From a virus: a stretch of DNA of 23,332 bases. The position numbers were made by a program, and so were the translations under genes. Positions 1 through 19,028 of the stretch are shown in pieces. The notes under the pieces were generated by a model, which was given only the letters and a program-made list of their open reading frames with translations, was not told the origin of the DNA and made no database searches. Location of the stretch: positions 1 through 23,332 of the IMG/VR virus record IMGVR_UViG_3300045242_000125. One strand, 5' to 3'. Every line of letters starts with the position of its first letter. Positions within the stretch are counted from its first letter, which is position 1.

Positions 1-2
1 CC

Positions 3-242
3 GCGAGCTTCTTGCGCCTTGGCACCGAAGCTACTGCGAATGCGCTGCTGCTGTTCAAGATCAAGAACCATGCGCAGGTCGAGGATCAGACGATGACCAT
101 CCGACAAGTCATTTCTGCCGATGCCATCCAGTCGATGATCGACGCCGCCTACGCCGAAGCGCCGCGCGTCGTGAAACTCGGGATGGAAAATTATGAGCGC
201 CGCGTCGTCGCCGGCAATAAGGAAATGGAGACCGCCGCATGA
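3..242 (+). CDS. 3' end of an unrecognised phage protein (partial at window edge)
   Basis: The reading frame is open from the left window edge to a TGA at 240-242, so the gene most likely begins outside the window. An internal ATG at 93 with GAGG about 8 bp upstream could be a start giving a 49-residue protein. The sequence before that ATG also reads like real protein, so I favour a truncated longer gene. The C-terminal part looks helical and charged. I recognise no family. Its stop overlaps the start of the IS110-like gene (ATGA), so the two are probably translationally coupled in one early operon. Confidence 0.45.
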   Translation, partial: ASFLRLGTEATANALLLFKIKNHAQVEDQTMTIRQVISADAIQSMIDAAYAEAPRVVKLGMENYERRVVAGNKEMETAA

Positions 243-1111
243 GATCCCCAGACAGAACGCAGACCGAAATCATCGATGACTTGCGCAGTCTTCACCGCGA
301 GCGACGCTATGCCATGAAGGTGCAGCAGAAGATCGACCGCGCCCTCGAAGCATTCGTGCGCAATAACGCTACGACGTGGTCGTTCGACATGGCGGAAGAC
401 GAACGCGAGAAGATCAATCGCGAGGTCAAGGCGATCATCGCAGCGGCGCGCAAGGACGGCACTGGACTTCCCCGCATCGTCGAGCTCGTCGGCACCACCG
501 ACCGCGCGCGTGGGCCGTTCGACGCGGTGCGCGAGGCGGCCGAGAAAAACATGGAGCAACTCGCCGCCAAGCTGCCGGTCATGGCGTGGATCAACACTGT
601 CAACGGCGCTGCCGCGCTCGGCCTCGCCACCATCATCGCCGAGACGGGCGACCTCGCCAATTATAAGGGGCCGGCAAAGGTGTGGTCGCGGCTCGGCTAC
701 GCACCATTCGATGGCAGCGCGGGCTCGACGTGGAAGCGCCCGACGTGGCGAACGCGCACGCTCTCGGCTGAAGAGTGGACCGAGCACCCCTTCAGCGGGC
801 AGCGCTACGCTTTGATCCACCAGATTTCGATCTGGTTAATCAACGCCCAATGGATCGGCGCCGACAAAAGCGAAAGCGGCGAGGGCGAGCCGGCCGGGTA
901 CTACGGATGGGTTTACAGCGAGCGGCGAAAGCACACAGCAGCGACGCATGCCGATTGGTCGAAGCAGCACAGTCGCATGGATGCGCTGCGCGTGGCCATG
1001 AAGGCGTTCTTGCGAGATTTGTGGTGTCAGTGGAATGACCGCCCCATGCCGGCGCGGCCTGAAACCGAGTTCGCGCCGAAGCCAAAACCGAAACGGAAAA
1101 CAAAGTCATGA
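239..1111 (+). CDS. IS110-like Transposase_20-domain protein without the DEDD domain
   Basis: A 290-residue protein. Residues 1-110 are charged and helical (probable coiled coil). Residues 116-158 match the helix-hairpin-helix start of the Transposase_20 domain of IS110/IS116/IS902 recombinases: a VNGAAALGLATIIAETGDL-type stretch, then AKVWSRLGYAP. The Gly-Ser-Ala-Gly-Ser at 159-163 lies where IS110 enzymes carry their catalytic Ser; S160 and S163 are candidates. Residues 186-260 resemble the remaining helices and end in AFLRDLW. The Lys-rich tail suggests nucleic-acid binding. IS110 enzymes normally carry an N-terminal RuvC-like DEDD nuclease domain, and I see no counterpart, so DNA cleavage in the usual way seems unlikely (inference). 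The gene is coupled to the one upstream, and its last codons lie inside the leader of the RNA-like array that follows, suggesting a protein-RNA pair. Family call fairly sure; function unknown. Confidence 0.72.
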   Translation: MRSPDRTQTEIIDDLRSLHRERRYAMKVQQKIDRALEAFVRNNATTWSFDMAEDEREKINREVKAIIAAARKDGTGLPRIVELVGTTDRARGPFDAVREAAEKNMEQLAAKLPVMAWINTVNGAAALGLATIIAETGDLANYKGPAKVWSRLGYAPFDGSAGSTWKRPTWRTRTLSAEEWTEHPFSGQRYALIHQISIWLINAQWIGADKSESGEGEPAGYYGWVYSERRKHTAATHADWSKQHSRMDALRVAMKAFLRDLWCQWNDRPMPARPETEFAPKPKPKRKTKS

Positions 1112-1115
1112 TCAG

Positions 1116-1218
1116 AACTGCGGTCGCCAGTCGAGCCTTGATGCCCAGGGGCAGCGTGCGACCGCATGCGCGCGGCCAAGCGAGGCGTGATGCCCAGAAG
1201 TCGTTTGCCGCGCGCTCT
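1116..1218 (+). repeat. Guide-like unit A
   Basis: Stem 1 arms lie at 1119-1127 and 1158-1166; stem 2 arms at 1168-1176 and 1207-1215. Loop 1 (1128-1157) carries GTCGAGCCT and GGGGCAGCG around TGATGCCCA. Loop 2 (1177-1206) carries AGCGAGGCG and GAAGTCGTT. The leader CAAAGTCATGATCAG (1101-1115) overlaps the last codons and stop of the upstream gene and recurs before unit C. Confidence 0.75.
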
Positions 1219-1232
1219 CTTTCACCACCTCG

Positions 1233-1335
1233 AACTGCGGTCGCCACTCGATGGCTGATGCCCAGGGAAGCGCTGCGACCGCATGCGCGCGGCCAGAAAG
1301 CCAGTGATGCCCAAAAAGCCGCTGCCGCGCGCTCT
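1233..1335 (+). repeat. Guide-like unit B
   Basis: Stem 1 arms at 1236-1244 and 1275-1283, stem 2 arms at 1285-1293 and 1324-1332. Loop 1 carries CTCGATGGC and GGGAAGCGC; loop 2 carries GAAAGCCAG and AAAAGCCGC, each around TGATGCCCA. The unit follows unit A after only 14 bp and lacks the 15-bp leader shared by A and C. Confidence 0.75.
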
Positions 1336-1359
1336 TCTTTCTCGGCTACGTCCAGGGAC

Positions 1360-1465
1360 GCAAATGGTGCGGGCAGTGCGGGGCTCGCCACGAAAGGTGC
1401 CCTCGGGCCCTGGGCGTTTCCAACTACTGACTCCCGGCAAGGGCACCGGCTCGCACACCATTTGC
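1360..1465 (+). ncRNA. Nested palindrome between units B and C
   Basis: Perfect outer inverted repeat GCAAATGGTG (1360-1369) / CACCATTTGC (1456-1465). It can be extended by CGGGC (1370-1374) against GGCTCGC-side bases (1449-1453) across a 2-nt bulge. Inside lies GGTGCCC (1396-1402) / GGGCACC (1441-1447). The element fills most of the 149-bp gap between units B and C and does not share the unit consensus. It could be a structured RNA (scaffold or processing signal), a small inserted repeat, or a DNA site; I cannot decide which. Confidence 0.45.
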
Positions 1466-1484
1466 AAGGCAAAGTCATGATCAG

Positions 1485-1587
1485 AACTGCGGTCGCCAAT
1501 CGAGCCTTGATGCCCATGAGCACGGTGCGACCGCATGCGCGCGGCCAAGATACTTCTGATGCCCAAAGCGCAAGTGCCGCGCGCTCT
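1485..1587 (+). repeat. Guide-like unit C
   Basis: Stem 1 arms at 1488-1496 and 1527-1535, stem 2 arms at 1537-1545 and 1576-1584. Loop 1 carries ATCGAGCCT and TGAGCACGG; loop 2 carries AGATACTTC and AAGCGCAAG, each around TGATGCCCA. The 29 bp at 1470-1498 are identical to 1101-1129, so unit C together with its leader looks like a duplicate of unit A with changed variable segments. A CT-rich tail follows the last stem, as in A and B. Confidence 0.75.
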
Positions 1588-1642
1588 TCTTCTTCTCAGG
1601 TCTAAAAAACACAAGTGCGTAAGCCAAACTAACGGTTGACAC

Positions 1643-1846
1643 ATGACCGAAAAACTACCTTTCACCCAGCAGTCCATTCGCCGCGCCATAGAGGCGGCTC
1701 GGAAGGCGGGCCTGCACGTGCTCGCCATCCGGGCCGATGGCACGGTGATTGTCGGCGAACACCCGGTCGACGGCAGCAAGCTGGTGCCGACCGCGCCGCA
1801 GACGGGCGACGAAGCCGAACGCGCGTATTGGGAGACTGTTAAATGA
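1643..1846 (+). CDS. Small conserved-type protein preceding the integrase
   Basis: A 67-residue protein with an N-terminal amphipathic helix (IRRAIEAARKAG) followed by a beta-like HVLAIRADGTVIVG segment. Small proteins of this style often sit immediately upstream of integrases in rhizobial prophages (recollection, not checked). Its TGA overlaps the integrase ATG (ATGA), so the two are translationally coupled. No clear Shine-Dalgarno precedes the ATG at 1643. An overlapping ORF in another frame (1636-1842) is rejected as a shadow. It could be an integrase accessory or excisionase-like factor, but no HTH is evident and I assign no function. Confidence 0.7.
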   Translation: MTEKLPFTQQSIRRAIEAARKAGLHVLAIRADGTVIVGEHPVDGSKLVPTAPQTGDEAERAYWETVK

Positions 1847-2913
1847 AGGTGCGGCTGAAATACCTGAGCATCGAGCGCTCCAGGCACGGCAAGGAAGTCG
1901 CCTATGTCATCGCTGGATCAGGCAAGCGCCGCCGCATTCGAATCCGCGAGTCGTTCGGCTCCCCCGGTTTCATGGCCGCCTATGAGACCGCGGTCGTCGA
2001 GCTAGGACAGCCGGTTGCACCGGGCAAGTCCGCTGAGCCAAAGAAGGGTACGCTGCGCTGGCTCGCCGGGCAGTATTTTGCCTCGCCGGTCTTCCGTAAT
2101 CTCGATCTGAAGTCACAAGGGGTGCGAATGTCCGTGATCGAGAGTTGCCTGCGCGAAGCGACGCCTCGCCCGATGGCCGAGTGTCCGTTGACAATGTTCG
2201 GCCCGAACCAAGTTCGCCTGCTGCGCGACCGCCGGTCAGCCCAGCCGGGCGCCGCCAACAACAGAATGAAATACTTATCCGCGATGTTTGGCTGGGCGCT
2301 CGAGAACCTGCCCGACGCGGTGACGAGCAACCCGGTGCGCGACGTTCAAAAGCTGAAATACGAGAAGACCGGCTTCCGCCCCTGGACCGAGAGCGATCTG
2401 GCGAAGTTCGAGGACGCCTATCCGGTCGGCACCAAGCAGCGGCTGGCCTTGGCGCTGCTGCTGTTCACCGGCGCGCGGCGATCCGACGTTGTCGACCTGG
2501 GCCCCGCCTGCGTGCGCGACGGCATGATCCGTTTCGTGCCTAAGAAGACCAAGCGCATCCGCGGAGAGGCAACGCCGAAGCCCTACCTGCCCGAACTGGC
2601 GCGGATCGTGGCGGCCACCAAGCTGCAGGGCCGTGAGACCTTCCTGGTGACCGACTACGGCAAGCCGTTCAGCGTCGCCGGGTTCGGTGGCTGGTTCGCC
2701 GAGCAGTGCCGCCGGGTCGGACTCGACGACTGCACCGCCCACGGCTTGCGCAAGCTCGGCGCCATGCGGGCGGCAATGGCAGGCGCCTCGCACTACCAAC
2801 TGATGGCGGTCTACGACTGGTCCACCCCGGCGCAGGCGCAGGCGTATATCAACCTTGCCGAGCGCGCCCGCGGCGCCGCTGCGGCGATGGGGTTCCTGGC
2901 AAAACGGGGGTGA
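1843..2913 (+). CDS. int: Tyrosine recombinase (phage integrase)
   Basis: 356 residues, the usual length for a phage integrase. The N-terminal half (about 1-175) fits arm- and core-binding domains. The catalytic domain shows box I TGARRSD (R212), a beta-hairpin Lys region PKKTKR (about 234-237), HGLR (H300, R303), a Trp in place of the second His (W326 in YDWST), and the nucleophile Tyr335 in AQAYI. It would catalyse site-specific integration and, with an accessory factor, excision. It starts at an ATG overlapping the stop of the 67-residue gene. No attachment core is identifiable with confidence; repeated GTTCGCAC motifs start 13 bp after the stop codon. The gene is intact. Confidence 0.95.
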   Translation: MKVRLKYLSIERSRHGKEVAYVIAGSGKRRRIRIRESFGSPGFMAAYETAVVELGQPVAPGKSAEPKKGTLRWLAGQYFASPVFRNLDLKSQGVRMSVIESCLREATPRPMAECPLTMFGPNQVRLLRDRRSAQPGAANNRMKYLSAMFGWALENLPDAVTSNPVRDVQKLKYEKTGFRPWTESDLAKFEDAYPVGTKQRLALALLLFTGARRSDVVDLGPACVRDGMIRFVPKKTKRIRGEATPKPYLPELARIVAATKLQGRETFLVTDYGKPFSVAGFGGWFAEQCRRVGLDDCTAHGLRKLGAMRAAMAGASHYQLMAVYDWSTPAQAQAYINLAERARGAAAAMGFLAKRG

Positions 2914-2925
2914 GGAATTCGAGTC

Positions 2926-3101
2926 CGACGTTCGCACCCTTCGTTCGCACCTTTTTATTTATTAGTAAAATCAAACACTTACGACCACGGTGGCAGGAGT
3001 GGAGGGACTGCAGAAAGTTAGCGGTCTCAAATACTTACCCGAAAGTGCGAACGTTTTCCGACCCCCATTTCATGGGCATAACCATAGCGACGTTCGCACC
3101 C
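2926..3101. promoter_or_regulatory. Cluster of GTTCGCAC motifs (arm-site or operator candidates)
   Basis: CGACGTTCGCACCC occurs twice exactly, at 2926-2939 and 3088-3101. CGTTCGCACC occurs at 2942-2951, and the inverted form GTGCGAACGT at 3045-3054. Four copies of an 8-bp motif in 176 bp directly behind int could be arm-type integrase sites or repressor operators. The sequence shows the repeats; the role is inference. Confidence 0.4.
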
Positions 3102-5183: not shown

Positions 5184-7808
5184 TCAATTGCCCACCAGCG
5201 CGGCGGCGAAGACGTTGTCGCCGAAGGTGTTGCCGAGGACTCTGTCCGCTACGTCGCCGTTGTAGAAGTAGGCTTCGAGGATGTCATCGGCAGCGAGGTT
5301 GATGACATCGACGACTTGGCAGGACACGGGCGCCCCGGCCACGCCGATGCTCCAAGCAAACGCAAAGCAGATCGGCGAGCCGTTCTTGTAGACCGCGGCC
5401 TGGAACTGCTTATAGGCCGACACGCTCCCCATCTGGCCGCGCAATATGACCTGATACTTGCCGGGCGTCACACAATGAAACTTTGACGCGACCGCATCAT
5501 AACCATTGTCGTTGTCGAAAATTTCGAGCGCGAATGCAGCTTTGGTCCAGGCTGCGGCCACGAGGTTTGTGCCGATCTGCACGAGCGCCTTGAAGCCGTG
5601 CGCGTTAGGGATCTCGACAATGTTCGGCACCACGCCGACCGGCACCGGGCGCGCCTTGTCCATGATGTCCGCGTTGCCGAACTGCGCGAAGGCCCGGCCA
5701 TTCATGACGCCCTGATAGGTGGCGCCGAGCTGGTCGATGATGGTCCCGGTATCGGAGGCATAGGCAAAAGCGCCAGGGTAGTTTGGCGCGGTCCCTGCTA
5801 CCGCCAGCGCGAGCGAGCCGTCCACAAAACGGGTGGTCGAGCCCTGGTTGAGGATGTGCGACGAGCGCTCGGCGCGCAGCGCTGCGGTCGCGACCGACGG
5901 CATGAACATCTGCACGGTGCCGCGGATGAACTCCACCGCGGACTGCCATTGCGCCAGCAAGTTACAGTTCGCCGGACCGAAGATGACGTTGCCGATATAC
6001 AGGGTCGTGCGGAAGTCCGCGAGGATACCAATGCCGGTACCGTTGCCGTCAGGGTCGGGCGCGCCGCCCAGGCCTTGCACCCGCAGATCCGTGACGTACC
6101 AAGGCTGCGGGCAGTACACCGCGATGACGCCCCAGTTGGAACCGCCGTCGCAGACCACGGTGGAATTGTCGAGCCCGACATGCGAGCCGCACAGCCACGG
6201 CACGGTGAAGATCGCGCCCGGCACGCCGCCCGTCACGGGCCCCGGATCGACATTGCAACTGCCGACCCAGTTGCGCAGCACGACCGGCGGCCAGACCGCG
6301 CCGCCCGCGCGCGGATGCAGGATGATGCGCACCCGTGCGTTGTCGATAATCAGCGTGTCGCAGACAATCTGCATCGCCCGGTCCGCGGTCTTGAAGGCGG
6401 TTGCGAGCGAGAAGCCGTCGTTGGCGTCATTCCCGGCGACGTCGTCGACGTGATAGTCGCGCGGGGTCGAGATGCGTTCGCGCGAGTCGTACTGGATCTG
6501 ACGGAACCAGTTGACCGGATCGCCCACCGGATCGTGGTTGAGGTTGCCGCTCGTGAGGCTCGAATAATAGCCGCCATTGCGCAGGACGACGTCGCCGCTG
6601 GCATAGGTGACGGCGCTCGACCAGACCCCGCGATAGTTTCCGAGCACGCTCGGCCCAGGCTGGCCGGGCGGCCCCGAAATCCCGGTCGGGCCGATCGGGC
6701 CGAGCGGTCCCTGTGGACCGGTGTTCCCCTTAGGCCCTGCCGGACCAACTGGACCGATTGGCCCCGTCATGCCGGTTGCGCCGGCCGGGCCGACCGCGCC
6801 GCGATCGCCGGTGCGCGACACGACGATGTAGACGCCCTCGCCGTTGATCAGCGGCGTGCTCGACGTGGCGTAGGTGTTTTGGATCGCCAGCGAGCGCCAG
6901 ACGCCGTTGTCGGTCTCCGCCGCCATCTCGGCGCTGACAAATCGGGTCTCGGGATTGAGCACGGCGCAGATCTTGACGATGGATTTCACGGGCGACGTGG
7001 AGTCGTCCCAATGATCCATGATGCCGGCGATCGGGTTGCCGTCGGCGTCGATCTCGCTGAGGTTGATCAGTGTCGAGCCGCCTTGCGGCGAGGCGTTCAA
7101 GCGCAGGACGCCGTTGCCCGGATCGCCGCCGCCCGTCGCCGAGCTGAAGATGTAGCGGAAGGTTTCTGCGCTGGCGCGCACCGCACCGAGCGGCGACGGG
7201 ATGTCGTCGACTTTCCAGACCTCGACCTCGGCGTAGTATTCCGGCCCGCCGATATTGCTCGCGCGGCCGAGCCCGCTCACGGGTTTGTTGCCGCTGCAGA
7301 TGTGCGCGATGTGAAAGGTCGTGTTGACCGTGAGCGTCACCATCGTGAAGCCCGGCGACCACACCTGCGCATCGGCGGTGGCGCCCGCGACGGCCGACAG
7401 CCCGAGCTCCTGCACGGCGACCGCGGTGGTGTTGTGCAGATAGGTCCGGTGCTGCCCGACCTGATAGGCGGGAGCGTTCCACCGGATGAGGTAAGCGCCC
7501 GGAGTCAGCGTGAATTCGAAGCCACCGCTCAGCGTGGCGCCGATGATGTTGCGGACAATCGTGTTCAGTTTTCTAGTCGGGATCGCCGAGTTATTGAAGT
7601 CGCCGGCATCGACTCCTTGCGCGAACTGCTCACGCGCTTGAAAATCCGGCGCGCGCTGCGCGACCTTCGATTCAAGATAGGTTTCAATCTGCGTACCCCA
7701 CGCGGTGATCTCGGCCTTTACCGGCTTGTGCGCGCCCGACGACGCGATGCCCGTGTTTTCGTAGCCGCGCCAAATCTCGGTGGCGCGCTTGATCCAGCTG
7801 AGTGCCAT
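5184..7808 (-). CDS. Tail fibre/receptor-binding protein with collagen-like, beta-helix and C1q-like parts
   Basis: 874 residues from the ATG at 7808 (an upstream in-frame extension reads like intergenic DNA). Residues 1-330 form an N-terminal domain resembling those of other phage fibres. Residues 334-387 are Gly-X-Y collagen-like repeats (trimer shaft). Residues about 393-437 are aromatic-rich ([17 protein letters not shown]) like CBM5/12 modules. Residues about 452-730 ([21 protein letters not shown]) look like a right-handed beta-helix. Residues about 740-874 resemble a C1q/TNF-like jelly roll, with [11 protein letters not shown] and AVYKNGSP. The protein probably binds the host surface at the tail tip. 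It follows the gpJ-like gene by 20 bp and ends just before the lysis genes. No catalytic residues of a depolymerase are recognisable. Confidence 0.88.
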
Positions 7809-7828
7809 TGGTCTCGTCCCTTTTGGAT

Positions 7829-9667
7829 TCAGGAAAGCGGCGGCGGGCCCTCGCCCTCTTCGGTCGCCGGGTTCCAGGCATCGATCGTCGCGGGGTCGAC
7901 CAGAGTCCATGTCGCCGAGAGCGTTGCGGCCTGCAGATCAACACGCGCGTTCGAGATTTCGACGACGGCATTCGCGAGCTCGGGAATGCGATCGTCTTTG
8001 ATGGTGACCCACCGCTCGCCGAGCGCACGCAGGCCATAGAGCTTTAGCGCGATCGTCCCCGACGGCGCCGAGATCCGCGCCATGGCACGCTTGGCGAGCC
8101 GCCGCAATTGCGAGTGGCGATTGACCCATGGCAGCGTGAGCTGCTGGCTGCGCACCCGCCCGCGCGCGGCGATGTCGTCGTTGTCGCGCCACGGGTCGCC
8201 GGCCACATCCTTGTACTTGCTGGCCGGGTCGTTGAACGTCAGCGCCAGCTCGTTGACGACCTCTTCGTCGGGCCGCCCGTAGTTGATCGAGAGCCCGGCA
8301 ATGTGCCTCTTCTCAAGAGTGACTGCCGGCGGCGAATAGACGCCAACTTGCAGCGACAGCGCGCCTTCGCCATCCTCGCAGAACCACGCATCACAGGCGG
8401 CGCCGATGCCGGCGAGCACGTCGGCCGGGTCGTCGTCAAAGGCAAAGATGCCGTTCGCGGTATAGCGCGGGCCCATAGCGCCGGTCGCGTCGGCCACCAA
8501 CTCGTCGCAGAGATTCGCCTTGGCGAGGAAGTTCGCAAGCCGCGGAGTGATCGCGGTCGCGCGGTCGAGTCCCATGCCGTGATCGCTGTTGGTCAGATAG
8601 TCGATGAGTTGCAGGACCGGATTCGAAATCACCAAGCACCACTTGTCGGAATGCTGGTCGGGCTGGTTGCCGACGTTGCCGGCGACGCGCGAATAGTAGG
8701 GCGCGCCCGTCGGTAGCCACCAAGCGAGGTCGGTGACAGGGTGGCCGACGTTGCCGGTCTGGCGCGAATAATAGACCTTGTTGCTCTTGGCCACGACCGC
8801 ATAGCGCGCGTATGTCGTGCCGGCATTGTAGGTGTCGGTAATGCCGGCGCCGACCTTGCCGGCGTCCCAGCGCGAGAACACGACGCGCGCGCCGGCCGCA
8901 TAGGTGGCGGCAGGATTATAGGTCGGGTACGCGGTCCATGTGTCCGGGTTGTCGGGGTCCTGGCCGCCGTCGCGTGGGTCCCATACCGGATAGAGATCGA
9001 CCTCGGCCGATGCCTCGGGCCGCCCATTCGGAAATATCTTCGTGAAGTTGTTGAGATCGCCCGGCTGCGTCAGGAGCACCATGGCCGACGCGATGCCGTC
9101 GCCGCGGTGGCTCGCGTCCCAGAACGATGGCATGAGCGGCGACGTGTGCGCAGTTTCGGTCGGCAAGCCGACGCGCCAGCTGAGCTGCACCGCGCCGCTG
9201 CCATACTGACCGTTGGCCAGCGCGTTGACGACGGTGCTCTGCGGGCCGGTCGGCGTGTCGGTCGGCGCGTCCTCGTTGAGGTACCATTGCCCGTAGCCGC
9301 AGACGCGCCCCGAGACCAGCGCGAGCACGTCGATTGAGGATGCCTGCGCGCCACCCACGCCGACATCGAACAGCATGTAGCTGCCGGCGACGCGGCGATG
9401 GCCATAGCCGCCCTGCCGCACCGGGTTGGGTTGACGGATGTTGATGAGATTTTCAGTCGGCGAAGCCTGCTGCGGCGCCGCCGACTGCTGGAGCGCGTAT
9501 GAGAGCGCCACGCTGCCGGCGAGCAGGGCGGTCGAGCCGATCACCGAGGCCGAGATCGAGAGGCCGAGGACGTTGGCCGAGACGACGCCGGCCGCCGAGA
9601 CGGCCGACTGCGCGGCGCCGGCCTGCACCAGCCCGAAAATGATCAGCTCGCCGACAGTCGCGGCCAT
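7829..9667 (-). CDS. gpJ-like tail tip/host-specificity protein
   Basis: 612 residues from the ATG at 9667, four bp after the preceding stop. Residues about 6-58 are hydrophobic and Gly/Ala/Ser-rich (membrane-active or zipper-like). Residues 73-200 ([17 protein letters not shown], then GSYMLFDVG) and 345-580 ([37 protein letters not shown]) resemble the baseplate domains of gpJ-type tail-tip proteins. Between them, about 245-345, lie Tyr/Trp-rich repeats ([19 protein letters not shown]) like small carbohydrate-binding modules. It would form the tail-tip hub that carries the fibre. It is shorter than lambda gpJ, and the separate downstream fibre gene probably supplies the missing distal part. 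Confidence 0.82.
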
Positions 9668-15840: not shown

Positions 15841-16392
15841 TTAAACGCGCGGCACCCACCAGGTCGAGAAATTGTCCATGATCCAGGCCGGGATCGACTC
15901 GCCGCCGGGGCCGGCGTGGACATAGATTTCGCGATGCTCGTAGAGGTGCGTCGCGAACGTAAAGACGCAATCGACGATCCCGGGCGGCACCTTAGTGGCG
16001 TCGGCGTAGCCGCTCTCGAACGTGAACTTGATACCCGCCTGCCATGCGCCCGCGACCTTGTAGGACGGCGCGCCGAACAGCGTGTTCGTCGTCAGCGTGA
16101 AGGCGGCGCTGATGTCATTGCCGTCTGCATCCTTGACCGCCATGCTAGTGACCGGCGTGACCGGAACCACCGCTTCGCCGCAATGGAAGTCTCGCGAGAC
16201 CGGAAACCAACTGATCGTCGTCGGGTTCACCGCTACCTCGGTGACGCGCTGAAAGTAATCGATGGCGCGGCCGACGACCTGTTTGACGTAGAGGTCATCA
16301 TCCGTGAAGTCGATCCGCATGTGCGCCTTGGCGTCGGTGAGCAGACCCGTCGGCAGCACCGCGATGTCGACCGCATCGATGGTCTTGCTCAT
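15841..16392 (-). CDS. Head-tail connector (gp6-like)
   Basis: 183 residues from the ATG at 16392 (ATGA overlap with the collagen-like gene; a longer ORF upstream is a shadow). LTDAKAHMRIDFTDDDLYVK (about 18-37) followed by RAIDYFQRVT is the signature of the gp6-like/phage connector family. The rest is beta-rich with AYKVAG-like turns, ending in a helix with FATHLYEHRE. It forms the ring attached below the portal. Confidence 0.9.
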   Translation of the reverse strand: MSKTIDAVDIAVLPTGLLTDAKAHMRIDFTDDDLYVKQVVGRAIDYFQRVTEVAVNPTTISWFPVSRDFHCGEAVVPVTPVTSMAVKDADGNDISAAFTLTTNTLFGAPSYKVAGAWQAGIKFTFESGYADATKVPPGIVDCVFTFATHLYEHREIYVHAGPGGESIPAWIMDNFSTWWVPRV

Positions 16393-17249
16393 GCGCGCCG
16401 TTCCTCGTGATAGCGCTCGAACAGCGGGCGCAAGTTCACGACGCCCTCGGTGCCGTCGCTCATGAGGACGACCAGCGACCAATCGACGAGGTCGAAACTG
16501 TCGATGCCGCGACCGGGCGGGCCGTCCTTGCCGCGGTCGCCTTTGTCGCCTTTATCGCCCGGCTTGCCCTTAATGCCCTTGGCGCCGAGCACCCATCCGG
16601 GCCCTGGCAACTCGCCAGGGTTGTCGCGCACCGCCCGCCATTCGGAATTGTGCGCCGCCACCACGTCCAGCGCGCGATAGCTGGCGGCGGGATCATGCAA
16701 GCCGCAGGCCCGGCCTGGATAGCCGTCCTTGCCGTCGCGGCCGGCGAGCGCGACCGGCGCGAAGTCGTCGTGCGGCGGCGCCTGCGCGGTATCCCGTAAC
16801 GCCGCATAGGTCGAGCCCTCATGATGCACGAGCTCGTTGGCATAGGTCACCCGCCCCGGCTCATAGGCGCGCGGCGGCACCAGCCGGCCGGGCGCGCCAG
16901 GGGGCCCAGGATCGCCCGTGGTGCCGTTTTCGCCGGGGAGGCCACTTTCCCCCGGCTCGCCCTTTTCGCCGCGCTCGCCGGGCAACCCTGGCGGCCCTGG
17001 CGGCCCTGGCGGCCCTGGCGGCCCCTGTTCGCCGGGGTCGCCCTTTTCGCCGCGCTCGCCGGGCGCGCCGTCACGCAATGTTTCGATCCGCGCGCGTGCG
17101 TGAGCCAGCAGCCGCTCGACCGCGAGCTGGCCTTCCAGCGCAATCGCCCGGATCTGGCTCGCCTCGGCCGCCCAGTCGCGGCGGACATTGGCGAGCTGAA
17201 TTCGGATGCTTTCAGCCAGCGGCGCGAGCGCCGAGCCGTTCAACTTCAT
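16389..17249 (-). CDS. Collagen-like protein in the head gene cluster
   Basis: 286 residues from the ATG at 17249 (a TTG at 17261 would add four). Residues 1-58 are a probable coiled coil (LAESIRIQLANVRRDW). Residues 61-121 are about 20 Gly-X-Y triplets with many PPG and ERGEKG-type triplets. Two aromatic modules (about 125-172 and 183-218) resemble CBM5/12 repeats. A second collagen tract spans about 222-248, and an acidic tail ends in LFERYHEERR. It overlaps the portal gene by 38 bp and precedes the connector gene. A trimeric fibre on the capsid or neck is the simplest reading; a tail or whisker protein is the alternative. Confidence 0.85.
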   Translation of the reverse strand: MKLNGSALAPLAESIRIQLANVRRDWAAEASQIRAIALEGQLAVERLLAHARARIETLRDGAPGERGEKGDPGEQGPPGPPGPPGPPGLPGERGEKGEPGESGLPGENGTTGDPGPPGAPGRLVPPRAYEPGRVTYANELVHHEGSTYAALRDTAQAPPHDDFAPVALAGRDGKDGYPGRACGLHDPAASYRALDVVAAHNSEWRAVRDNPGELPGPGWVLGAKGIKGKPGDKGDKGDRGKDGPPGRGIDSFDLVDWSLVVLMSDGTEGVVNLRPLFERYHEERRA

Positions 17250-18639
17250 GGGTCGGCTCAAAGTAGTCGTTCCACTCGGCGACGGTGATGTCGCTCTCGT
17301 CGAGGTCGTTGGCGTTTGCGGCCGCCGGTGCCGGCGCCGGGCCGGCGGGCGCGCCGGCCGGCGGCGATGGCGGCCTCGGCTCGGTGGCGAAGCTCAAGGG
17401 CACGACCTGCTGCTGCACGCGTGGCTCGTCGCCCGCCTTTGCCGCCGGCAACCCGAATTCGGCGCGCGCCTCGTTGGGGGCATAGATGCCGCCGATGACG
17501 CCGCCCGAATATGCCTCGATGCGGTCCTTGAGGTTCGAGCGCAGCAGCACCTCGGAGTCGAGTTCGCAGCATTCGTTCGGCCCCAACGCAAACAGCTTGT
17601 CAAACGCCTGCTCGACCCGGTCGAGCGCGAAGCCGAGCCCGCCGCTGATCCAGAAATTCATCAGCGCTTCGGTCGAGCCCATCGGCTGCGATTCTGAGCC
17701 GACGATGGCGAGCGGCACGCGAAAGACCTGCGCGATCTGCGCGTCGCTGAGTTTCAAGGCTTCGGCGATTTGGCCGTCCTTTGCCGAGACGGCCACCGGA
17801 GCGAATTTGAGCCCGTGCGTCAGGATCGGCGTGCCGCCCGCGTTCAATCCTTTGGATTGTTCGTCCCAGCGCGCGCGCAAATCCTCGGTTTGCGCCTTGG
17901 TAAGTGCCAAGTCGGTCTGCAGCACGCCGCCGGGGCGGCTTTGATTTTGAAAGAACGCGATTGACTGCGCCATGATCGCATTGGTCGCGGCGACCGCCAT
18001 GGCAGCGGCGCCCAGCGGCGACTCGCCGTGCAACACGTCGCGGATCGAATTGAGTTTGATGTGCAGCACGTCGCGCGCCGGCACAAAATTGAGCAGCGAG
18101 GCATCCAGCTCCTGAGCGGTGATGCGGCTGTTAACCACGTAATTGCCGCCGAGTTGGTAGATGATCTCGCCGTCGAGCGGCTGGCCGCGGCTCATGCGCG
18201 GATTCATCTGGTGCAATTCGGCGATCTCAAAACGGTTGTTCCTGACGGCCAACGCATAAGCGTTGCCGTCGAGGTAGAGCGAGCGGACCATGTTGAGCAG
18301 AAATTCCGACCGCGTCTGGTAGTCGTTCGGCGCCAGCGCGATACGCGAAAGCGCCGAGGTCGTGACCTGCTCGCGGCCGCCATTGTCGAGCAGGGCATAG
18401 TGATACATCGGGCATTGGGCCACGGTCTGCGCGTAGGCCGAGACGCAGGCCTCGACCATCGCCGACATCCCGCCTGGAACCGGGTCCAGGTCCATCTGCC
18501 AGTGATTCCAGTAGCCCCAGGCATGCGGCAGCATGCCGGTCATGTTGCCGTAAGTAATTTGATACGGGCCGTCGTGGTAGGCGCCTTCCGGCGCCGCCTT
18601 GGCCGACAACAGCGATCCGATCTTGCTCAACCAGCTCAT
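17212..18639 (-). CDS. HK97-family portal protein
   Basis: 475 residues, starting MSWLSKIGSLLS, with a good family match: ACVSAYAQTVAQCPMYHY (about 65-82), LLNMVRSLYLDGNAYALAVR (114-133), HQMNPRMS, DVLHIKLNS, SPLGAAAMAVAATNAI, and SDAQIAQVFRVPLAIVG near 300-317. It forms the dodecameric DNA gate at the capsid vertex and docks the terminase. The C-terminus is an Ala/Pro-rich linker (about 420-450) followed by an acidic tail. The start overlaps the stop of the Gln-Pro repeat gene (ATGA). Confidence 0.95.
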   Translation of the reverse strand: MSWLSKIGSLLSAKAAPEGAYHDGPYQITYGNMTGMLPHAWGYWNHWQMDLDPVPGGMSAMVEACVSAYAQTVAQCPMYHYALLDNGGREQVTTSALSRIALAPNDYQTRSEFLLNMVRSLYLDGNAYALAVRNNRFEIAELHQMNPRMSRGQPLDGEIIYQLGGNYVVNSRITAQELDASLLNFVPARDVLHIKLNSIRDVLHGESPLGAAAMAVAATNAIMAQSIAFFQNQSRPGGVLQTDLALTKAQTEDLRARWDEQSKGLNAGGTPILTHGLKFAPVAVSAKDGQIAEALKLSDAQIAQVFRVPLAIVGSESQPMGSTEALMNFWISGGLGFALDRVEQAFDKLFALGPNECCELDSEVLLRSNLKDRIEAYSGGVIGGIYAPNEARAEFGLPAAKAGDEPRVQQQVVPLSFATEPRPPSPPAGAPAGPAPAPAAANANDLDESDITVAEWNDYFEPTHEVERLGARAAG

Positions 18640-19028
18640 TTGCGAACCGGGGCGCCTTTTGTCGGATAGTGGGCGTTTTCCTCGGCGACCATGTCACGCG
18701 TGTGCGGCTTTGCATGCGGCTGCGGCTGCGGCTGCGGCTGCGGCTGCGGCTGCGGCTGCGGCTGCTTGGCCTCGTGCTCGTGCTCGCGCGGCTTGTCCTT
18801 GTGCCTCGGATCGAGGACCGGCTCACCGCGCAGGCGCGGCGCTGCGGCGACGGCCGCCTGATAAATCCGCTCGCGATCTTCGTCGGTCTGCTCGGCCGGC
18901 GGTTCGGCCGGCGGGACCGCAAAGGGGTCGTAAGCCCACCCCTCGCTGATTGCCGAGCTTGCATCGGCCTCGGAGACGGCTAGGCGCTGGTTGCGATATG
19001 GGCCCGCGGTGACTTGGATCATGGGCAT
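18636..19028 (-). CDS. Small head-region protein with Gln-Pro repeats
   Basis: 130 residues from the ATG at 19028, with AGGGAGG 8 bp upstream; an alternative Met lies two codons later. Residues 1-40 look folded (IQVTAGPYRNQRLAVSEADA, GWAYDPFAV). The rest is Pro/Glu/His-rich and disordered, with about nine Gln-Pro dipeptides near residues 89-105 encoded by a perfect hexanucleotide repeat. It lies between the major capsid protein and portal, where small head accessory proteins occur. Function not recognised. Confidence 0.78.
   Translation of the reverse strand: MPMIQVTAGPYRNQRLAVSEADASSAISEGWAYDPFAVPPAEPPAEQTDEDRERIYQAAVAAAPRLRGEPVLDPRHKDKPREHEHEAKQPQPQPQPQPQPQPQPHAKPHTRDMVAEENAHYPTKGAPVRK
18715..18762 (-). 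repeat. Hexanucleotide repeat, eight TGCGGC copies
   Basis: Eight perfect tandem copies of TGCGGC on the plus strand encode the Gln-Pro tract in the minus-strand gene. Copy-number change by slippage would keep the frame and change only the length of the linker. Confidence 0.9.

Follow-up and report, generated by a model that had tools for sequence, protein, structure and literature searches.

The 23,332-nucleotide (nt) stretch of DNA analysed here (the window) is the entire IMG/VR virus record IMGVR_UViG_3300045242_000125 and represents an HK97-like temperate phage. Directly behind a gene for a 290-residue protein it carries an array of six hairpins, and we consider this locus almost certainly to be a stem-loop-class TIGR-Tas system built around the solo-Nop-domain protein TasA. 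The account that best explains our data, and that we hold as a whole to be very probable, is that of a stem-loop TIGR-Tas in a temperate phage whose nuclease-free TasA is probably guided to 17-base-pair (bp) targets and may repress competing phages. Our computations show the fold of TasA, the hairpins, the hypervariability of their guides, the covariation of spacer positions A9 and B9, and an over-representation of exact targets among related phages. The study of Faure et al. 2025 (PMC12045711) left open the natural targets of TIGR-Tas, the role of nuclease-free TasA and the targeting by stem-loop arrays; beyond that study, we provide a 17-bp rule and the first candidate natural targets.

The hairpin array and its TasA protein

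The six hairpins are arranged as three pairs between 1119 and 1584, all on the + strand, and the first stem starts 8 nt past the tasA stop (Table 1). All six loops read CA-N9-TGATGCCCA-N9-T with zero mismatches, where the N9 blocks are the spacers A and B, and the box pattern CCA-N9-TGATGCCCA-N9-TG (box C, CCA; box D, UG) is present in 6/6 hairpins. No further exact match to the loop pattern was found elsewhere in the window, and at up to two mismatches there were 8 matches versus 1.4 expected, a number reached by 0 of 100 shuffles. Two stem sequences, TGCGGTCGC and GCGCGCGGC, alternate, and in each of the three units both 9-bp stems pair without a mismatch. This confirms the three two-hairpin units reported by the initial annotation of this DNA. 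Its estimate of about 67 invariant and 36 variable positions per 103-nt unit was exact for the variable positions, which make up the four N9 blocks, and close for the invariant ones, 61 positions being identical in the 97-nt core. In the first-position hairpins, spacer A (1130-1138, 1247-1255, 1499-1507) has the form NTCGA in 3/3 cases and is NTCGAGCCT in two.

Unit 2 starts 117 nt after unit 1 but unit 3 starts 252 nt after unit 2, owing to an unrelated stretch of about 140 nt that separates these last two. This insert is possibly an inserted element or a recombination scar: its only match in a related locus covers 38 nt at E 0.04, the segment 1352-1470 folds with a minimum free energy of -51.8 kcal/mol, and 1470-1487 exactly repeats 1101-1118, at the 3' end of tasA. 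Folding of the whole transcript gave a stability not above that of shuffled sequence (z -0.74), since a long transcript mispairs the identical stems; single hairpins and covariation are the useful structural evidence.

The 290-residue protein was modelled by AlphaFold with a pLDDT confidence score of 87, and a Nop fold spans the model from residue 6-10 onward. In VIA-align the model scored highest against TasH bound to its guide RNA, or tigRNA (Z 15.5), and TasR (14.1), followed by ISCro4 (12.4), IS621 (12.2), Prp31 (8.5) and Nop5 (7.6); Foldseek matched it to TasH at E 3e-5. Pfam returned just Transposase_20 at E = 0.005, under Pfam's cut-off, and neither a DEDD domain nor any nuclease family. 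As a nuclease domain is absent, we class the protein as TasA; judging by the model, it is a nuclease-free TasA and only distantly IS110-like. The array does lie behind this gene as annotated, and the assignment of the gene to the IS110 type fails.

The locus combines a nuclease-free Nop-domain protein closest to Tas proteins, an array adjoining its gene, dual spacers with boxes, and palindromic stems. Published stem-loop TIGR arrays have two 8-12-nt spacers per hairpin, with box C (CCA) before and box D (UG) after each, and palindromic edges (PMC12045711), so that the array is not, as had been thought, without a described counterpart. It shares with the published stem-loop class with TasA (Faure et al. 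2025; Peromyscus leucopus gut contig) a solo-Nop Tas, tandem hairpins beside the gene, palindromic edges and a phage setting. In contrast to that class, all spacers are 9 nt long, the loop repeat is fixed as TGATGCCCA, the hairpins are paired with two alternating stems, A9 and B9 covary, a feature absent from the text of PMC12045711, and natural targets can be proposed. The same paper foresees stem-loop arrays with an intervening sequence of fixed length and sequence, as an intermediate form.

Relatives of the system were collected from IMG/VR by scanning for the bare loop pattern (112 stretches) or one stem type (32 stretches) and by a profile search with 19 TasA proteins (80 loci). As these records are for the most part metagenomic fragments, the absence of a gene carries little weight. 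Among loci fetched via the TasA protein alone, 53/79 hold hairpins of 9-9-9 geometry, compared with 0/22 control loci, and 376/380 of the hairpins at such loci lie on the tasA strand; the association of gene and scaffold thus extends to related phages. In 4.2 Mb of related phage DNA we counted 431 distinct hairpins of this geometry and essentially none with other spacer or loop lengths. When loop-motif matches were picked blind to their stems, at least 7 of 9 stem pairs were formed in 342/393, against at most about 8% in a slid control. Pairing is retained via compensatory changes, most stem positions using several pair types across relatives, and the annotated stems pass this covariance check. 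Between the window and its closest sister, G024, there are 16 differences in 177 aligned nt; 16/16 fall within N9 blocks, and the 141 nt that make up stems, loops and flanks are identical. On these alignments, the N9 blocks are guides quickly replaced within a fixed scaffold, which upholds the earlier view of a fixed RNA scaffold with exchangeable 9-nt guides.

Relatives carry up to 30 distinct hairpins, and odd numbers and single hairpins occur. In the phage G019 (L171:5769-7030), hairpin pairs are scattered among the early-operon genes tasA, yqaJ and recT, and tigRNAs would therefore be made with early transcription. The loop repeat varies by phage (TGAACTCCA, TGAAACCCA and TGATGCCCA across L204-L207 of G050, L208-L210 of G052 and L211-L212 of G053), which suggests a matched specificity of TasA and tigRNA. 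Guides are also shared by halves: the window (1548-1556) and L175 have the same spacer A, AGATACTTC, with different B, and L082 and L081 of phage G014 the same spacer B, CTCCACGGA, with different A, as if halves recombined at the loop repeat or variants of one target were tracked. Arrays with no tasA found on the contig occur in L175 (G024, where tasA is not in the part sequenced), L163 (G004) and L200 (G042); these may be fragments, or users of another prophage's TasA. A single-protein search of GTDB genomes gave zero close relatives, and GenBank phage records one weak match only. The profile search found distant TasA relatives in named genomes, mostly Alphaproteobacteria such as Rhodoplanes, Bosea, Magnetospirillum and Hyphomicrobium. 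In the cultured Rhodoplanes elegans DSM 11907, two TasA loci (L322 and L323) about 63 kb apart carry the same seven hairpins in one scaffold, and this strain might serve as a laboratory host.

The initial annotation had read the locus as a phage-borne, multi-guide relative of bridge RNAs. Like the IS110/IS1111 bridge RNAs of IS621 and ISCro4, the system has left and right guides for opposite DNA strands, arranged in units of two hairpins, and a Nop-type RNA-binding fold, and this kinship stands. The recombinase part does not: IS110/IS1111 elements have an N-terminal DEDD (RuvC-like) domain and one bridge RNA with a target and a donor loop, whereas here we find no IS110 catalytic domain, no donor loop and many guides. 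The six hairpins are equivalent, each of a unit's two loops is a guide in its own right rather than a target or a donor loop, and relatives with odd numbers or single hairpins do not fit such a pairing of loops. There is also no sign of a transposon in the window system, whose element ends were not mapped. With TasH and TasR outscoring IS621 in the fold match, we rejected a bridge-RNA recombinase, and regard recombination driven by this array as very improbable. The chance that the repeats are part of a protein-coding gene is close to nil. A frame of 165 codons (1108-1605) does stay open across the array, but it has no meaningful Pfam hit, and the changes take in complete N9 blocks. In relatives the frame is thrown out of register by units set 48 or 49 nt apart, and substitutions in the stems are compensatory; a coding repeat was rejected as well.

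Spacer covariation and inferred target geometry

We tested the complementarity of all 81 pairs of A and B positions, in 245 and then in 431 distinct spacer pairs. A9 and B9 were complementary in 124/245 pairs (z 9.8) and in 198/431 versus 102 expected (z 11.6), the sole strong outlier among the 81 position pairs. From this covariation we infer a target of 17 bp that probably reads A1-A8, X, reverse complement of B1-B8, with the central base pair X read by both spacers. Covariation alone cannot separate a shared target base pair from direct contact of the spacer ends in the folded tigRNA, and G:U combinations, common at A9:B9 (48/245), would suit such a contact. We nevertheless consider it unlikely, because a target search blind to A9 and B9 still singles out spacing 1, and 4/6 exact hits at this spacing also fit both A9 and B9.

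The dual-repeat TIGR-Tas systems (TasR, TasH) likewise combine a Nop fold with 9-nt spacers A and B, which flank a loop repeat that opens with UG and closes with CCA. The window system differs from them in lacking a nuclease and in carrying stems where they have edge repeats. The published targets of TasR measure 18 bp with 0-2-bp gaps, and dual-repeat spacers show no obvious covariation, overlap being unlikely (PMC12045711), versus the 17 bp with one shared base pair that we propose here. The stem-loop class may therefore differ from the dual-repeat class in spacer overlap.

Guide matches in related phages and in the guides' own genomes

Targets were searched in 1.85 Mb of TasA-array phages, with arrays masked and duplicates removed, using the outer bases A1-8 and B1-8 only; as A9 and B9 were left out, neither can bias the spacing result. 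Exact hits in related phages were confined to spacing 1, with 4 there and none at any of the 18 other spacings. Permutations preserving the A9:B9 relation gave a mean of 0.09 exact hits, and 0/1000 reached 4. One-mismatch hits at spacing 1 numbered 19 versus a mean of about 8. We devised the relatedness test once the covariation had been seen, but the spacing under test had been fixed beforehand by the covariation. A search with paired N9 blocks against phage genomes, proposed in the initial annotation, was thus productive for the relatives' guides, and not for the window's own six.

The targets are listed in Table 1. For the guide of G040 that exactly matches tasA of other phages, G040's own tasA differs from the target at 6/17 positions. 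The clearest case concerns G042, which has two divergently transcribed helix-turn-helix (HTH) genes, a repressor and a Cro-like one, with the 19-bp palindrome ACTTTGC-TGGTG-GCAAAGT between them. A second copy, which reads ACTTTGC-TGATG-GCAAAGT on the other strand, lies upstream of the early yqaJ gene. The spacers TTTGCTGGT and ACTTTGCCA of a tigRNA common to G019, G022 and G059 spell 17 of the 19 palindrome bases exactly (matched site, TTTGCTGGTGGCAAAGT), and fit the second copy with a single mismatch. The motif is restricted to G042 among the loci examined, and no homolog of the G042 CI/Cro pair was found in the sequenced parts of the three guide owners. From their position and symmetry, the palindromes are putative repressor operators. 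Guide targets show no general palindromicity, so operator-like targets are not the rule.

We also searched each phage's own genome. No exact self-match was found among 370 guides at any spacing; at the 17-bp geometry there were 0/5/30 self-matches with 0/1/2 mismatches, versus about 0/0.9/16 at other spacings. The G024 guide that shares spacer A with guide 6 of the window fits its own integrase at 15/17 positions. Guide 6 itself and its G024 counterpart resemble a conserved integrase stretch coding NRMKYL with at least two mismatches (window 1566-1574; L175:2008-2024). No integrase fitting guide 6 with fewer than two mismatches was found, and the divergence between the window and G024 at the integrase site is unremarkable, 8.8% of sequence windows being equally divergent. 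The integrase as a target of guide 6 is a weak lead.

Table 1. Features of the window and targets of relatives' guides (positions refer to the window unless a locus is named).
Feature	Position	Strand	Description
tasA	239..1111	+	solo-Nop-domain TIGR-associated protein, 290 aa; AlphaFold model and VIA-align
Putative tigRNA hairpin 1	1119..1166	+	stem TGCGGTCGC/GCGACCGCA; spacer A GTCGAGCCT (1130-1138); loop repeat TGATGCCCA; spacer B GGGGCAGCG (1148-1156)
Putative tigRNA hairpin 2	1168..1215	+	stem GCGCGCGGC/GCCGCGCGC; spacer A AGCGAGGCG (1179-1187); spacer B GAAGTCGTT (1197-1205)
Putative tigRNA hairpin 3	1236..1283	+	spacer A CTCGATGGC (1247-1255); spacer B GGGAAGCGC (1265-1273)
Putative tigRNA hairpin 4	1285..1332	+	spacer A GAAAGCCAG (1296-1304); spacer B AAAAGCCGC (1314-1322)
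Unrelated insert between units 2 and 3	1334..1475	.	can fold into a long hairpin; its end copies the tasA 3'-end sequence
Putative tigRNA hairpin 5	1488..1535	+	spacer A ATCGAGCCT (1499-1507); spacer B TGAGCACGG (1517-1525)
Putative tigRNA hairpin 6	1537..1584	+	spacer A AGATACTTC (1548-1556), same in sister phage G024; spacer B AAGCGCAAG (1566-1574)
Tyrosine integrase	1843..2913	+	Phage_integrase E = 4.4e-8; downstream of the array
Exact target, tasA of G019, G022 and G059			guide from G040
Exact target, recT of G047			guide from G055
Exact target, DnaA_C-type gene of G014			guide from G004
Exact target, operator-like site of G042			guide common to G019, G022 and G059
One-mismatch target, recT of G019 and G059			guide from G034
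Exact target, MT-A70 methylase gene of G033			guide from G057; G033 lies outside the phages scored as related
Palindrome copies of G042, perfect arms	L200:6995-7013 and 7469-7487		CI/Cro-like control region and upstream of early genes

As to the phage itself, PHROGs matches in the window comprise terminase, portal, head, tape-measure, endolysin and repressor genes, and the tyrosine integrase indicates a temperate phage. Two proteins with collagen-like GPP repeats of the tail fibre type are encoded at 16389-17261 and 5184-7910, and a (QP)n tract at 18715-18765. Rfam gave zero matches in window positions 1-3000 up to E = 5, and a promoter and terminator scan nothing above chance level.

Proposed role of the guides

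We propose that the array would be transcribed with or behind tasA and then cut into six hairpin tigRNAs. Each tigRNA would be bound by a TasA dimer via two box D (UG)/box C (CCA) pairs, those of the stem and of the TGATGCCCA loop repeat. Spacer A would pair with one DNA strand and spacer B with the opposite strand of the adjoining DNA, both meeting on the one shared central base pair of the target. TasR bends its bound target by about 180 degrees (PMC12045711); given this bending and the lack of a nuclease in TasA, the simplest effect would be a transcription block, so that binding of TasA-tigRNA may silence early genes rather than cut them. The guides of a prophage might in this way keep in check those related phages which its own repressor fails to recognise. 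Whether repression of rival phages is the main role of the TasA guides we put at an even chance.

Several observations weigh against this account. The relatedness cut-offs were chosen with the data already seen, yet 3, 6 and 10 shared open reading frames each keep the 4 exact hits at spacing 1. In the available DNA, targets are present for only a few per cent of all guides. No convincing target was found for any of the window's six guides, whose best hits among relatives have two mismatches; guides 4, 5 and 6, searched as exact 17-mers against IMG/VR, gave 18, 2 and 2 hits, at chance level and none in a relative. Own alleles at homologous sites diverge about as much as the surrounding gene, giving no support for selection for self-avoidance. 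The A9:B9 covariation is weak in 72 later-added guides, mostly from distant TasA clades (22 versus 18 expected, z 1.0), and the overlap rule may not hold for all TasA clades. Finally, near-matches in the own genome are in excess, 35 versus about 17 at one or two mismatches, which also fits self-regulation.

Because of this excess of imperfect self-matches, self-regulation is the main rival. The guides would then chiefly regulate genes of their own phage, for lysogeny control or timing, and the matches in sister phages would be by-products of shared genes. The enrichment of self-matches at the 17-bp geometry, a TasA without nuclease and the fit of the G024 guide to its own integrase all agree with such a role, which we regard as possible but doubtful: exact self-matches are wanting, whereas exact matches fall in other phages, and the clearest guide matches a putative operator whose CI/Cro pair has no homolog in the sequenced parts of the phages that own the guide. 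Faure et al. discuss TasA as an RNA-guided helper of the phage integrase (PMC12045711). In the window and in G024 the integrase gene does follow closely behind the array; elsewhere the integrase is kilobases from tasA or off the contig (19/40 TasA-phage records have one), and the best-supported targets are not attachment sites, so that we find this role improbable.

Returning to repression of competing phages, the nearest functional parallel is lambda-type CI/Cro immunity, since the operator-like palindrome at a sister phage's CI/Cro switch is spelled out by the guide of a relative, and the proposed effect is that of repressor-mediated immunity. Unlike there, the specificity would be held by RNA and could be changed by swapping 9-nt blocks. 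The box C/D small nucleolar ribonucleoproteins (Nop5) and Prp31 also have a Nop fold and two guides anchored by box C/D-like motifs; the system here has a predicted DNA target, and no fibrillarin- or L7Ae-type partner was noticed, none having been specifically searched for.

The family offers about 430 distinct natural guides with a regular layout, a 17-bp rule that can be tested, and guide-target pairs identified by name; in one of these the guide spells out what is probably the immunity operator of a sister phage. Through such pairs the function of TasA becomes directly testable. As a predicted RNA-guided DNA binder of 290 residues without nuclease, TasA might be used as a programmable repressor. 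Stem-loop TIGR-TasA may be a family of RNA-programmable phage repressors with 17-bp sites, whose guides are directed against early genes such as tasA, recT and replication genes and against the CI/Cro operators of heteroimmune sister phages, a proposal for which we judge the prospects evenly balanced. If true, lysogens would gain programmable immunity without DNA cutting.
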